Source of the DNA: an uncultured Pelagibacteraceae bacterium
Lineage (GTDB): Bacteria; Pseudomonadota; Alphaproteobacteria; Pelagibacterales; Pelagibacteraceae
Assembly: GCA_902573905.1 (NCBI GenBank)
Contig: CACGLL010000001.1
Location: 1-64,000, forward strand
Direction of reading: 5' to 3'
DNA length: 64,000 nt
In this document: positions 51,397 through 58,696 of the stretch, one piece after another
Layout of the letters: each line of letters begins with the position of its first letter
Position numbering within the stretch: the first letter of the stretch is position 1
Position numbers and translations under genes: made by a program
The notes under the pieces: model-generated
Databases searched by the model: none
The model's input: only the letters and a program-made list of their open reading frames with translations
What the model was told of the DNA's origin: nothing

Positions 51397-53073
51397 ATGG
51401 AAATAGATAAACTTAATAGTCTTGTAGAATTATACTTTAAAAAGTGTGAGGAAGTTGATCCTAATAGGCCTTTTTTAAAATGGCTAAAACCTAATAAACC
51501 AACTTATACCTGGGGCGATATCAAAGAGAGAATATTTAAGCTTTCTACAAAAATAAAAACTTTAATCAAAGAAGGAGACCGATGTTTAATATTATCTGAG
51601 AATAGACCTTATTGGCTGATGTCAGATCTTGCAGTTATGAATGCAGGTGGAATTTCAGTTCCAATTTTTACAACATATTCATCAAATGATTATAAATATA
51701 TTCTAAACGACTGTAATCCGTCTTTAATTATTGTCTCTAACAATGATCAATTTAAGAAAATAAAAAATTATGTAAATTTAAATAAGCAAAAAATAATCTC
51801 TTTTGAAGAGATAGAAGCTGATAGTTTATTAATTAAGAATGTTCTTAACGAAGATAATTATAAAAAAGAAATTAATGATAATTTAAAAAGAAATATGCCT
51901 GCATGTATTATATATACATCAGGTACTTCAGGTAATCCTAAAGGAGTAATTTTAAGTCACGGGGGGATATTATCTAATTGTGAAGGTGCAGTAGAATTAC
52001 TTGAAACTTTAACTAAAAAAAAAAATCCTACATTTTTAACTTGGTTACCTTTATCGCATTCTTATGAACACACAGTACAATTTATACAAATCATTGTAGG
52101 TGCTAAAGTTTTTTATGCTGAAAGTTTGGAAAAATTAATTGCTAATATGGAAACTGCTAAACCAACTATCATGACCGCTGTTCCAAGATTTTACCAAAAT
52201 CTCTTTACCAAAATAAATATGAATTTTGAAAAACAAAAAGGACTTAAAAGAAAACTAATTAATCAAACTTTGTATCTAGGAAAAAAGACACTTAAAAAAG
52301 AGGAACTAACCTTAGCTGAAAAAATCATAAACTTTTTATGTGAAAAATTAGTCAGAAAAAAAATAAGAAATCAATTCGGCGGAAATCTTCAAGCCTTTGT
52401 TTCCGGTGGAGGAGCTTTAGATCAAAATATTGGAGAATTTCTTAATGCTATAGGACTGCCAACCTTACAAGGGTACGGCCTTACCGAGACATCTCCTGTA
52501 GTAAGCTGCAATTTACCAAATTTAATAAAAGTAGAAACAGTGGGTCCTCCATTTAGAACCAATAAAGTGAGAATAGCAGAGGATGGTGAAATTTTAATAA
52601 AGGGTGAAAATGTAATGCTGGGTTATTGGAATCTTAAAGAGGAAACTGAGAGAGTAATTAAAGACGGTTGGTTGCATACAGGTGATATTGGCGAGCTTGA
52701 TCACAATAATTATTTAAAAATAACTGATAGAAAAAAAGATATTATTGTTAATTTAGGCGGAGATAATATTTCACCAAGTAAAATTGAAAATATTTTATGC
52801 TTAAACGAATTTATTAAACAATCTTTTGTTTACGGAGATAAGAAAAACTATTTAGTTGCTTTACTAGTTACCGAAAAAGAAATTAGTAAAGATAAAATAA
52901 AACTTATAATTGAAAATATAAATAAAAGTTTAACTTTAATAGAAAAAGTTAAAAAGTTTGTTTTAATTAACGAAGAATTTACAATTGAAAACGGAATGTT
53001 AACACCTACTTTAAAGTTAAAAAGAAAAGAAATAATTAAAAAATATAAACAACAATTAGAAAATCTTTATTAA
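51397..53073 (+). CDS. AMP-dependent long-chain fatty-acid CoA ligase
   Basis: IIYTSGTSGNPKGVILSHGG, LPLSHSYEHT, LQGYGLTETSPVVSCN, GWLHTGDIGELDHNNYLKITDRKKDIIVNLGGDNISP. Confidence 0.92.
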   Translation: MEIDKLNSLVELYFKKCEEVDPNRPFLKWLKPNKPTYTWGDIKERIFKLSTKIKTLIKEGDRCLILSENRPYWLMSDLAVMNAGGISVPIFTTYSSNDYKYILNDCNPSLIIVSNNDQFKKIKNYVNLNKQKIISFEEIEADSLLIKNVLNEDNYKKEINDNLKRNMPACIIYTSGTSGNPKGVILSHGGILSNCEGAVELLETLTKKKNPTFLTWLPLSHSYEHTVQFIQIIVGAKVFYAESLEKLIANMETAKPTIMTAVPRFYQNLFTKINMNFEKQKGLKRKLINQTLYLGKKTLKKEELTLAEKIINFLCEKLVRKKIRNQFGGNLQAFVSGGGALDQNIGEFLNAIGLPTLQGYGLTETSPVVSCNLPNLIKVETVGPPFRTNKVRIAEDGEILIKGENVMLGYWNLKEETERVIKDGWLHTGDIGELDHNNYLKITDRKKDIIVNLGGDNISPSKIENILCLNEFIKQSFVYGDKKNYLVALLVTEKEISKDKIKLIIENINKSLTLIEKVKKFVLINEEFTIENGMLTPTLKLKRKEIIKKYKQQLENLY

Positions 53074-53202
53074 TTTTTTAAAAAAATTAAATAAAATTGC
53101 TTAAAAAAACATTGATATTGCTAACTTTTTATAAATATTTAAAAAAATAAAAAAATAATTAAAAAATTAAATTTTGAATCAATTTCATAAAATAATTTAT
53201 GT

Positions 53203-53231
53203 TTGACATGAATCTTTTAATAATTAATGTT
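53203..53231 (+). promoter_or_regulatory. Candidate sigma-70 promoter for the hyperbasic mini-ORF
   Basis: TTGACA at 53203-53208 with an AT-rich -10-like region (TAATGT, 16-nt spacer) downstream. Confidence 0.4.
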
Positions 53232-53280
53232 TAATTAACAAACGAATCATTAAGATTTGTTTAATAACAAGGGAGAAAAG

Positions 53281-53352
53281 ATGGCTAAAAGAAGAAAAAA
53301 AGCTAAAAAGAAAACTAAAAAGAAAGCAAAAAAGAGAAGAAGAAGAAGATAG
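53281..53352 (+). CDS. Hyperbasic 23-aa mini-protein MAKRRKKAKKKTKKKAKKRRRRR
   Basis: ATG preceded by AAGGGAGAAAAG Shine-Dalgarno; 18 of 23 residues Lys/Arg; 208-bp leader region and terminator flank it. Confidence 0.75.
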   Translation: MAKRRKKAKKKTKKKAKKRRRRR

Positions 53353-53366
53353 TTTTCTGTTTAACT

Positions 53367-53404
53367 AAACGCCCTTTTTATTTTTTAAAGAGGGCGTTTT
53401 TTAT
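53367..53404 (+). terminator. Intrinsic terminator after the mini-ORF (possibly bidirectional)
   Basis: AAACGCCCT...AGGGCGTTT stem followed by a T-run, between convergent genes. Confidence 0.85.
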
Positions 53405-54102
53405 TCTGCATTCTCTGAAATATTTGTTCTACCTAAAGCTTTATCCATTTTCTTTTGAACTTCTTCAGGGCTTGTTTTTAGAACTGCCTCGAACTCAGAT
53501 TTAAGCCTTTCGTACGCTTTTTCAAATAATTGTCTTTCAGAATAAGACTGATCGGCTATGATATCTGTGTTCTTATTAAGATCTTTTACCACCTCAGCTA
53601 ATTCATAGATTTTACCCGAGTTGATTTTTTGATCATACTCTTGAGCGCGTCTACTCCACATTGTTCTTTTTATTTTTGGCTTAGTTTTTAAAATAGAAAC
53701 ACATTTATTAATTTGATTAATAGAAGAAATTGGTCTTAGTTTTGATTGTTGATTTATAGGAACAGTTAAAGTTAATTTTTCTTTTTCAACAAGTATTTTA
53801 TAAAATTGAATATCGATTTCTCCAATTTTAGCTTTTTCAATAGCTGTGATTTTACCCACACCATGTTTTGGATACACCACAAAATCTTTTAAATTATAAA
53901 TACGTTTTTCTGTGGGTTGTTTTTTTATTTTTTTAATTTCTGGTTTTTCATCTTGACCAGGGATACTGTTTTTTTTATCAATTGGATTGGCTACAGATTT
54001 AGCAGAATTCTTAATTTTTTCCTTTTTTAATTTTTTAGTTTTTTTTATTTTTTTTGTTTTTTTTATTTTTTTTGTTTTTTTTACTTTTTTCTTTTTAGGC
54101 AT
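53401..54102 (-). CDS. CarD/CdnL-family RNA polymerase-binding regulator with Lys-rich N-terminal tail
   Basis: YNLKDFVVYPKHGVGKITAIEKAKIG...FYKILVEKEKLTLTVPINQ; WSRRAQEYDQKINSGKIYELAEVVKDL. Confidence 0.93.
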   Translation of the reverse strand: MPKKKKVKKTKKIKKTKKIKKTKKLKKEKIKNSAKSVANPIDKKNSIPGQDEKPEIKKIKKQPTEKRIYNLKDFVVYPKHGVGKITAIEKAKIGEIDIQFYKILVEKEKLTLTVPINQQSKLRPISSINQINKCVSILKTKPKIKRTMWSRRAQEYDQKINSGKIYELAEVVKDLNKNTDIIADQSYSERQLFEKAYERLKSEFEAVLKTSPEEVQKKMDKALGRTNISENAE

Positions 54103-54838: not shown

Positions 54839-56362
54839 TTATTTAATATTTAAAGCACGAAGTTTATTAAATGGATTCTCTTTATTGTCAAACTTAAATA
54901 ATTTCTCTTTTTTCTTCTTTTCACCTTTAAAAATGTAAGTATCTTCATTTTTATCCTTTTTATAATTCATATAATTCATTAATTTTAAGAAATTTTCTCT
55001 AGAACAACCCAATAAATTCATCATACTTGCGTTAATTTTAAATTTCTTATCTTTTGTATTATCTATTATCTTAATAAATAATTTCTCTAAAATATCAATT
55101 CTTACAAAAAATTCCTTAAATTTTTCAAAACCACAAAGCAATAAGAAGTTTCTTTCTAGTTTTTTATCTATTAAGAAATTCAACCCTGACTTAGGTATTT
55201 TTTTTCCAGACAAGTTATGAAATAAACTCCATAAACTAATTCGAAATTCTACAGCTTTTGGTTTTAACATTTTAGGTAAGTAAATATGATATCTTCCTAT
55301 TTTAATCCCCATGCCCCATAATTTTTTTCTTTCTTCGGAAGGAATTAACTTTACAATTTTATCAACTTCATTTCGTTTAACTACCCCATTTTTTTCATAA
55401 AGTTGAAATACTAGCCCTCTTAGATACTGATTATTAATTTTATGTTTAGTAAGCTTAATTAAATCTCCCAAAATATCATTAATATAATTATCTAACCATT
55501 TTGCTAAAAAATTAGTCAATTTTATTTTAGATGTCTCATCTAGAGAATCGTCAGCAATTATATCAATTTCTGGATTTAAATAGCTGCTGCCTTTTTTTAA
55601 TCGAGCAATAGGATTATTTTTCCATATAATTTTATTTTCATAATTAACTGATAAATCTTTACTAATAAAAATATTTTCTACTCTTTTTATTAATTCTTTT
55701 TCAACACCTTTTCTTGCAGCTTTTTTAATTGATTTAATATCTGTATCTAAAGTTTTAGATGTAACTTCTATTAAAAATTTTAAACCTTTTAATTCACCAA
55801 TTAACTGCCCATCTATATAAATTTTATCATCTTCATTGATTTCTGTATTTAGGACTAAATCTTGTTTAAGACTACGTGAGAGAATACTAATTTTTTTATC
55901 AATAAAACTTTTAGTCAATTCATTATGTAATTTATCCGAAAGTTTATCTTCGATACTTTTTGTTAGTTGAACCCAATAATCTGAATTTTCTACCCAATTC
56001 TTTTTATTAGCAACATATGACCAAGTTCTTACATTTGATAGTCTGTGTGATAACAAATCTACATTCCCATGATCTTTTTCAAGGCCTTTTAGTTGTTCTT
56101 TCATAAAAGTACTTGGAATTCTTTTTTTTCTTGTAGAAAGAAATTGGAACACTTTATCAATAACATTAATATGTTGACCGTAAGCTTTTTTTTCAAAATC
56201 AGGTATCTGACAACATTCCCAGAGTAGTTCTAAGTTTTTATGATAAATAATGTTGTTGTCACCTTTTTTAAGAAAAAATCTTAATACACTTTCATCAAGC
56301 GAATCGTTCGTTCTTAATAAATTTTTTTTATCAGGTCTAAGCTCTAATGATGCAATTAGTTT
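54839..56362 (-). CDS. C-terminal part of SUV3-like/alphaproteobacterial helicase, frameshifted relative to N-terminal part
   Basis: Open frame extends 70 codons beyond the track ORF (KLIASLELRPDKKNLLRTNDSLDESVLRFF...LELLWECCQIPDFEKKAYGQHINVIDK); LSHRLSNVRTWSYVANKKNWVENSDYWVQLTKSIEDKLSDKLHNELTKSFIDKK. Confidence 0.85.
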   Translation of the reverse strand, partial: KLIASLELRPDKKNLLRTNDSLDESVLRFFLKKGDNNIIYHKNLELLWECCQIPDFEKKAYGQHINVIDKVFQFLSTRKKRIPSTFMKEQLKGLEKDHGNVDLLSHRLSNVRTWSYVANKKNWVENSDYWVQLTKSIEDKLSDKLHNELTKSFIDKKISILSRSLKQDLVLNTEINEDDKIYIDGQLIGELKGLKFLIEVTSKTLDTDIKSIKKAARKGVEKELIKRVENIFISKDLSVNYENKIIWKNNPIARLKKGSSYLNPEIDIIADDSLDETSKIKLTNFLAKWLDNYINDILGDLIKLTKHKINNQYLRGLVFQLYEKNGVVKRNEVDKIVKLIPSEERKKLWGMGIKIGRYHIYLPKMLKPKAVEFRISLWSLFHNLSGKKIPKSGLNFLIDKKLERNFLLLCGFEKFKEFFVRIDILEKLFIKIIDNTKDKKFKINASMMNLLGCSRENFLKLMNYMNYKKDKNEDTYIFKGEKKKKEKLFKFDNKENPFNKLRALNIK

Positions 56363-57300
56363 TTAGGGTTGCTAAAATTAAGGTTAGAATTTCTCCAATA
56401 AATTGATTTGGTGTCTGGTAATTGATGTTTTTCTATTTTTTCTATTTCATCTGAATTTAAAGTTTCACAATCACCTGTTGTTCCAAATCCGCCATCATTT
56501 TTATATCTCCCTGCACGGCCGGCGATTTGGGACATTTCAATTAGGTTGAGACGTCTAGTTTTTTTGCCATCAAATTTTTTTAAATTTGAGAAATAGATTT
56601 CATTTATGTCCATATTTAACCCCATGCCAATCGCATCCGTTGCAATTAAATAGTCTACGTCTCCAGATTGATACAATCCTACTTGTGAGTTTCTAGTTTT
56701 TGGACTCAAGGAACCCATAATAACTGCAGCTCCTCCTTTTTGTCTTCTTACTAATTCTGCAATCGCGTAAACTTCTTCAATTGAAAAGGCTATTATTGCA
56801 ACTTTACGATCCAAACGTGATATTTTTTTTATCCCCGAGTAACTTAATTTTGAAAACCTTTCCTTTTTCTCAAATTCTACGCCTTCGACAAGTTCACTAA
56901 TTATATTTTCCATTACTTGTGAACCTAGGAACATTGTTAATTTTGTTCCTCTAGACTCTAGCATTCTTTCAGTAAAGATGTGGCCACGTTCTCTGTCAGA
57001 ACACATTTGTATTTCGTCAATTGCAATAAAGTCGACTTCTTTATTTTTAGGCATTGACTCAACGGTACAAATGAAATAGGTAGCAGTGCTTGGGATAATT
57101 TTTTCTTCACCCGTTATTAAAGCTACTTTTTCTGCCCCGACTTTATTTACGCATTTGTCATAAACTTCTCTTGCCAGTAATCTCAAGGGTAAACCAAAAA
57201 TGCCTGAGGAAAATTCAAGCATTTTTTCTATTGCAACATAAGTTTTCCCCGTATTCGTAGGACCTAGTAATGCAATTATTCTTTGAGATTGATTAGTCAT
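56356..57300 (-). CDS. N-terminal ATPase part of SUV3-like helicase
   Basis: ALLGPTNTGKTYVAIEKM (Walker A), FIAIDEIQMCSDRERGHIF, ATDAIGMGLNMDI, MSQIAGRAGRYKNDG; ends YWRNSNLNFSNPKN*. Confidence 0.9.
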   Translation of the reverse strand: MTNQSQRIIALLGPTNTGKTYVAIEKMLEFSSGIFGLPLRLLAREVYDKCVNKVGAEKVALITGEEKIIPSTATYFICTVESMPKNKEVDFIAIDEIQMCSDRERGHIFTERMLESRGTKLTMFLGSQVMENIISELVEGVEFEKKERFSKLSYSGIKKISRLDRKVAIIAFSIEEVYAIAELVRRQKGGAAVIMGSLSPKTRNSQVGLYQSGDVDYLIATDAIGMGLNMDINEIYFSNLKKFDGKKTRRLNLIEMSQIAGRAGRYKNDGGFGTTGDCETLNSDEIEKIEKHQLPDTKSIYWRNSNLNFSNPKN

Positions 57301-57457: not shown

Positions 57458-58696
57458 ATGTCATCTAAAGTAAAAAAGAAAATTCTAAAACTCAAAGAAT
57501 CCTCAACACTTGTAATTAATGAAAAGTCCAAAGAGCTAATATCCAATGGAAAGAAAGTATATCAATTTGGCTTTGGACAATCTCCATTTCCAGTTCCAGA
57601 AAAAATTGTAGAGGCTTTAAAAAAGAACGCTCATAGAAAAGAATACTTACCTATTCAAGGATTACCTGAACTAAGAGAAAATATTTCAAAGTATTTAGCA
57701 AAAAGAACAGGAAATGATTACCCAAAAGAAAATATATTAATCACACCTGGTTCGAAGGAAGCAATGTTATTGATACATATTGCTTTTAATGGTGAAATTA
57801 TAATTCCTGCCCCTGGTTGGGTTTCTTATGAACCACAAGCAGAGATAGGTTCAAATAAAGTTCACTGGTTAGAAACTACAAGAGAAAATAATTGGTTTCC
57901 AACTGGAAAAGAACTTGAAAAAAAAATCAAATCAGTTGGAAAAAATAAAAATCTAATTTTAATTCTTAATTCTCCAAACAATCCGTCGGGAGCAGTTTGT
58001 AAAAATTTAGAGGAATTAGCTAAAGTAGCAAAAAAATATAAGATAATGGTTTTGTCAGATGAAATTTATACTGATCTCACTTTTACAAATCAATATAACT
58101 CAATATCAAAATTTTATCCTGAATTGACTTTTATAACTGGCGGATTAAGTAAATGGTGTGGTGCAGGAGGTTGGAGATTAGGTTTTCTAGCTGTTCCAAA
58201 AAAATTAACAGAGTTTTTAAAAAGTTTAAAATCACTTGCTAGTGAGTCTTATTCAACAGTTAATACACCCACACAATATGCGTCTGTAGAAGCTTACGCT
58301 CATGAGCATGATCAATATAAACTTAAAGTTAGAGCAATATTAAATGCTGTTGGATATTATGTTTATAATAATCTGAAATCAAACAAGGTATTAATTGCTC
58401 CTCCACAAGGCGCTTTTTATTTGATGCCAGAATTTAAAAACAAAAAATATAAAACTTCATCAAAATTATGTGAAGTAATTTTAAACGAAACAGGTGTAGC
58501 AATGTTACCAGGATCGGACTTTGGGTTTAAACCAAGTAAAATGTTAACAAGATTAAGCTATACTGATTTTGATGGAACAGAATTTTTTAAAAACGTTACA
58601 AACTGCAAAATGATAGATGATGAGATGATTAAAAAGCATGCACCAAATGTGGTTGAAGGCGTTTCAAAATTGTCAAATTGGGTTAAAAATTTATAA
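57458..58696 (+). CDS. Class I/II PLP-dependent aminotransferase (aspartate aminotransferase-like)
   Basis: INEKSKELISNGKKVYQFGFGQSPFPVPEKIVEAL, NSPNNPSGAVC, SDEIYTDLTF, GGLSKWCGAGGWRLGFLAVPK. Confidence 0.9.
   Translation: MSSKVKKKILKLKESSTLVINEKSKELISNGKKVYQFGFGQSPFPVPEKIVEALKKNAHRKEYLPIQGLPELRENISKYLAKRTGNDYPKENILITPGSKEAMLLIHIAFNGEIIIPAPGWVSYEPQAEIGSNKVHWLETTRENNWFPTGKELEKKIKSVGKNKNLILILNSPNNPSGAVCKNLEELAKVAKKYKIMVLSDEIYTDLTFTNQYNSISKFYPELTFITGGLSKWCGAGGWRLGFLAVPKKLTEFLKSLKSLASESYSTVNTPTQYASVEAYAHEHDQYKLKVRAILNAVGYYVYNNLKSNKVLIAPPQGAFYLMPEFKNKKYKTSSKLCEVILNETGVAMLPGSDFGFKPSKMLTRLSYTDFDGTEFFKNVTNCKMIDDEMIKKHAPNVVEGVSKLSNWVKNL

Follow-up and report, generated by a model that had tools for sequence, protein, structure and literature searches.

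The question raised by this locus, situated between a fadD-like gene and carD in an uncultured member of the Pelagibacteraceae, is whether a frame of only 23 codons, in whose translated product (MAKRRKKAKKKTKKKAKKRRRRR) 18 of the 23 residues are Lys or Arg, could be a gene, and, if so, what a protein made of little more than charge might do. The window, that is, the whole stretch of DNA analysed (64,000 nucleotides), belongs to an incomplete assembly (620,759 bases, 59% complete), and among named relatives, the nearest carD genes come from uncultured Pelagibacteraceae (SAR11), such as AG-453-G04 and SAR11 PRT-SC02. An earlier note, made from the letters alone, had claimed this ATG...TAG frame, with its 23 residues and 18 basic ones, and the frame is present exactly as described. 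In the whole window it is the only ATG-initiated ORF of at least 20 aa with K+R of at least 70%, and simulation of 100 windows under a second-order Markov model produced none of this class, a comparison by which a chance ORF was rejected: the micro-ORF is real, and a chance origin very unlikely.

As a peptide so short and basic makes a poor query, carD was chosen as the search anchor, and the neighbourhoods of this gene were read directly. A convergent hyperbasic (K/R-rich) ORF lies tail-to-tail with carD at all 161 checkable Pelagibacterales loci, a locus being checkable when its sequence includes the stop of carD and continues for 200 nt or more past it; these loci are drawn from two collections, with some genomes present twice, and five further loci, which end at contig edges, stand outside the count. 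A stricter ORF script missed 15 of the 161, mostly in short fetched stretches, and there the direct reading shows the ORF. By another route, a pattern back-translated from the N-terminus found matches in 51 of the 297 genomes of the order, and its reversed control in none of the 297. Outside the order, the carD loci of non-SAR11 Alphaproteobacteria carried a convergent K-rich ORF in 0 of 29 cases (one of these loci being shortened by a contig end), which rules out a neighbour conserved in other Alphaproteobacteria. The gene, apparently unannotated, is kept at every checkable carD locus of the SAR11 order.

The manner in which the frame varies points to translation. Among 72 distinct ORF sequences, the close pairs, differing by at most three bases, hold 48 synonymous and 22 replacement differences where random placement gives 19.8 and 50.2, counts that are not independent because the pairs overlap; third codon positions hold most of the changes, and the replacements are K<->R in 20 of 22 cases and A<->P in the other two. 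All the ORFs, from 20 to 99 aa, are in frame, their length differences being whole codons (multiples of three), and start, Shine-Dalgarno (SD) sequence and stop are preserved in relatives along with the frame. A loss of the frame in close relatives, which the earlier note had named as the result that would speak against its coding reading, was looked for, and the frame proved to be kept, so that this reading is not refuted. On these comparisons the protein-coding status of the micro-gene is close to certain, and the synonymous excess, together with replacements that are almost exclusively K<->R, argues for purifying selection on positive charge rather than on the exact sequence.

Table 1. Features of the micro-gene and its surroundings, with positions in the window.
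Feature	Position	Strand	Remarks
fadD-like AMP-dependent acyl-CoA ligase, upstream neighbour	51397-53073	+	
Genus-only block AAAAAAACATTGATATTGCTAACTTT / AAAAAAACATTGATATTGCTAACTTTTT	53102-53129	+	Constant 173-176 nt before the ATG of the micro-ORF
TTGACA, probable -35 element	53203-53208	+	Conserved spacing to CGAATC
TAATGT, weak putative -10	53225-53230	+	From spacing only; would put the transcription start near 53237-53238
5′ leader hairpin, AAACGAATC-ATTAA-GATTTGTTT	53240-53262	+	Just 5′ of the SD; fold -7.2 kcal/mol
CGAATCA, reverse complement of TGATTCG	53243-53249	+	GANTC core 53244-53248; only copy in the window
Shine-Dalgarno AAGGGAG	53269-53275	+	Almost all f1 relatives have an SD-like purine block in this position
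Hyperbasic micro-protein ORF	53281-53352	+	ATG at 53281, TAG at 53350-53352; 23 aa
Intrinsic terminator, 14-bp stem and T-run	53367-53402	+	Hairpin 53367-53399
carD (CarD_TRCF_RID + CarD_C), convergent neighbour	53401-54102	-	Next to the micro-gene in each of the order's two families

The frame is surrounded by signals for its own expression (Table 1). The SD sequence, the upstream TTGACA and the terminator after the stop are all present, as the earlier note had said, and with both frame and signals kept in relatives, there is strong support for its proposal of a micro-protein gene that has a promoter, SD and terminator of its own. Its figure of about 200 bp of dedicated upstream sequence stood only in part: the intergenic distance to the fadD-like gene is indeed 207 nt (53074-53280), but conservation beyond the genus is restricted to approximately the last 80 nt, and the block AAAAAAACATTGATATTGCTAACTTTTT was not found by pattern in other genera. 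At each of the 146 loci with complete upstream sequence, TTGACA (TTGACT in six) is followed by CGAATC after 32-35 nt, and none of 12 genomes searched has more than one copy of the arrangement TTGACA-N-ACGAATCA, which rules out a general 5′ motif of many SAR11 genes.

In g1, g3 and the sister family f2, the CGAATC arm would be able to pair with a following GATTYG or GATTCA to form the leader hairpin; g2, g4 and g5 have a different hairpin, TCAC...GTGA, at the same place, and the arm is paired in most of 131 predicted transcripts (mean 0.87). The f2 family adds a further short hairpin at the SD, formed by CCC/GGG in most members and by CGC/GCG in two, a paired change. The f2 leaders also share a conserved stretch, TAACCTCTAACTAAACCC, which together with this short SD hairpin suggests translational control. 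At the other end, the terminator stem begins 14 nt past the stop codon of the micro-ORF, its sequence changing between genera with the pairing kept, and the T-run extends into the carD stop codon, which is read from the opposite strand. CarD itself has a long Lys-rich N-terminal tail (MPKKKKVKKTKKIKKTKK..., window 54010-54102, minus strand), which differs between SAR11 lineages. From the leader hairpin to just past the terminator, the predicted transcript has 175 nt in the window, and Rfam gave only sub-threshold matches over 52900-53700, mostly over the terminator. In f2 the upstream place is taken by a short ORF that looks CsaA-like (a label given by eye), and given this change of neighbour the micro-gene is probably its own transcription unit and the locus a monocistronic gene.

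The CGAATC element reads CGAATCA at 145 of the 146 loci and CGAATCG at the remaining one. TGATTCG/YGAKTCK has been proposed in Caulobacter as the extended motif for activation by GcrA on CcrM-methylated GANTC (PMC7987155), and this extended motif is present at the micro-gene promoter. As regards the proteins, GcrA (PF07750) was found in 9 of 11 SAR11 genomes searched, with none seen in G004 or in the window genome (59% complete), and the RAMA domain of CcrM-type methylases (PF18755) in 9 of 9; in cultured Pelagibacter, GANTC is methylated at 99.86%, and a cell-cycle link has been suggested there (PMC9516812). The likeness to Caulobacter GcrA/CcrM promoters extends to a TGATTCG/YGAKTCK motif on GANTC near a sigma-70-like promoter, but in Caulobacter one main class of GANTC sites with a cell-cycle role is found between -35 and -10 (PMC4287350), whereas the SAR11 site would be near +7 if TTGACA is the -35, that is, downstream of the inferred start.

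The motif is rare. GANTC is depleted in the window (1-64000), with 94 copies observed against 177 expected from dinucleotide shuffles, and TGATTCG occurs once against 4.35 expected. In the 1.32-Mb genome G005, TGATTCG is strongly depleted, with 14 occurrences against 52 for the reversed control, and 9 of the 14 copies precede a start codon by no more than about 45 nt; it is found upstream of the micro-gene (twice, as a palindrome), clpP, clpX, recA, an acyl-CoA synthetase and a TPR protein (names by eye), and also at a divergent pair with ubiA (by eye) and at one more divergent pair. The copies upstream of genes are 4 of 14 in G070, including those of the micro-gene, clpX and the ubiA pair, and 3 of 16 examined in G002, so that the enrichment before genes is clear in G005, weaker in G070 and weak in G002. 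One copy in G070 (L272) lies between divergent helicase-like and aminotransferase genes, whose ORFs match window 56356-57300 and 57458-58696; the window has no TGATTCG between these two ORFs. Since copies are clustered before start codons, it is plausible that TGATTCG marks a small candidate GcrA/CcrM regulon, clearest in G005, and replication-coupled control of the micro-gene by GcrA/CcrM would likewise be plausible, as a well-motivated hypothesis.

What the product might do is best approached through its length, which is 21-24 aa in the genus of the window, 20-35 aa in the Pelagibacter-like g3, and 31-58 aa in g2, g4 and g5, with AAKKKAPAKKRK-type repeats in g5. In the sister family f2 it is mostly 76-99 aa, with one protein of 40; these forms start with MEELKVIFAKARKKAKKKAAPKKK and carry AAPKKK and KRKPAKKK repeats, KRKPAKKK-like repeats being present in g5 as well, and the f2 protein MEELKVIFAKARKKAKKKAAPKKKRKAAKRKPAKKK... 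stands under the same TTGACA...ACGAATCA promoter as the f1 genes. Sharing place, orientation and promoter, the short and long forms are, to judge from these traits, one orthologous series. On the carD tree length is graded, with the long forms in f2 and intermediate forms in other f1 branches; shrinking rather than growth is the likely direction, though not proven, because this tree is midpoint-rooted, with long outgroup branches, and not reliably rooted. Over the whole range, 20-99 aa, length varies among relatives through the number of repeats, as in H1-like proteins, and always in frame. The Lys/Ala/Pro-rich low-complexity repeats belong to the forms of f2 and g5; in the 23-aa form, K and R are joined only by three A and one T, with no P, and the H1 look therefore sits in the relatives.

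Low-complexity basic sequences are a hard case for profile searches, and neither Pfam nor NCBIfam gave a match for any of five length forms, nor PHROGs for any form tried. In the absence of a family-profile match, the term “H1-like” rests on composition, repeats and position, and the protein is not filed as a member of the Hc2 or AlgP families but proposed to work like them. The long SAR11 forms resemble a histone H1 tail, Hc2 of Chlamydia or AlgP of Pseudomonas, the likeness to Hc2 and AlgP being one of composition, repeats and length variation. Protamines, the sperm nuclear basic proteins, are short chains dominated by Arg and Lys, and the micro-protein is likewise such a chain with little else, although it has no Cys and its first half is Lys-rich; no homology is claimed. 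In Chlamydia, Hc2 (HctB) combines Lys/Arg with Ala, Thr and Pro in repeats, and the long SAR11 forms look alike; its length of 165-237 aa varies by repeat number (PMC2848022), which sets the differences between close relatives as in the SAR11 series, but the SAR11 forms have only 20-99 aa, come from free-living marine bacteria and have no Pfam match. With the C-terminal KPAA domains of Pseudomonas AlgP and PhaF, the likeness is that of a disordered, H1-like Lys/Ala/Pro tail, with KRKPAKKK-like repeats in f2 and g5; AlgP, however, has a helical N-terminal domain of 124 aa (PMC9239181), whereas in SAR11 the basic tail is the whole protein.

For these reasons the view of the earlier note that the function is not deducible from the sequence is too pessimistic: the comparison links the micro-protein to histone-H1-like Lys/Ala/Pro-repeat proteins, and the invariant GcrA/CcrM-type motif, which that note had missed, also argues against it. 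Judging by the charge and by the H1-like long forms, the likeliest function is charge-driven binding to DNA or RNA, and to the reading that the product is a minimal histone-H1-like polycation, binding nucleic acids and made under GcrA/CcrM-tied synthesis, we would give a probability of about 0.6. The mechanism could comprise the following: (i) a disordered, highly basic chain would bind the phosphates of nucleic acids non-specifically; (ii) it would thereby contribute to charge neutralisation and compaction of the small nucleoid of SAR11 (or of RNA); (iii) GcrA, acting at the CcrM-methylated CGAATCA, would tie its synthesis to the replication cycle; (iv) and finally, the 5′ hairpin would stabilise, or tune the translation of, a very short mRNA. 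A bolder form, in which SAR11 would have the smallest known histone-H1-like chromatin protein (20-35 residues, little more than charge), made in step with replication through GcrA/CcrM just after the transcription start, is put forward only tentatively. Searches of the SAR11 literature for H1-like proteins, small basic proteins and intergenic RNAs gave no description of the micro-gene, which is apparently undescribed and without a database family.

Other explanations can be set against the H1-like polycation. The ribosomal micro-proteins bTHX, bL37 and bS22 are very basic, of some 23-33 aa, fixed in length and distinct in sequence. A short basic peptide of this kind, lodged in an rRNA cavity, would fit the size and charge of the micro-protein, and its presence throughout the order and the leader hairpin before the SD resemble what is found in ribosomal-protein genes; nevertheless, a length that is not fixed but spans 20-99 aa, with a drifting repeat number, would be unusual for a fixed rRNA pocket, the neighbours of the micro-gene are non-ribosomal, and the 23-aa form matches neither these families nor anything in Pfam, NCBIfam or the PDB, where the 85-aa form gave only a weak graze of one L29 chain (E=0.52), so this explanation appears unlikely. 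Less probable still would be a general counter-ion for polyanions, AlgP-like, serving as a scaffold of polyphosphate or RNA condensates and not as a chromatin protein: a chain purely of K and R would bind polyanions of any kind, and the organisation of polyphosphate granules depends on AlgP, itself H1-like and rich in Lys, Pro and Ala (PMC9239181), but no tie of the micro-gene to polyphosphate genes was found in this analysis, and the GcrA/CcrM-type site better suits chromosome biology.

The lasting pairing with carD, which persists in two families despite the changed upstream neighbour, could also be read as a sign that the peptide is a partner or antagonist of CarD acting on CarD-dependent transcription, which the Lys-rich tail of CarD itself would suit, but direct binding between two strongly basic chains is not to be expected, and a shared terminator can by itself keep convergent genes together, which makes this highly improbable. 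Weakest of all, a small regulatory RNA whose A-rich frame is incidental would suit the short predicted transcript and its structured ends, but is ruled out as far as the codon pattern and the kept frame, with its start, SD and stop, can decide.

A K/R-only peptide would be missed by standard proteomics, since trypsin destroys it. SAR11 bacteria are among the most abundant cell types of the ocean and their genomes are highly streamlined, and yet a gene of some 100-400 bp has been kept throughout the order. If its product packs DNA or RNA, it would show what minimum size is possible for a histone-like protein, and the lengths from 99 to 20 residues would offer a natural series in which the requirements of such tails could be tested. 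The invariant CGAATCA, for its part, provides a concrete candidate, open to testing, for regulation by GcrA/CcrM in SAR11, whose cell-cycle control is little understood.
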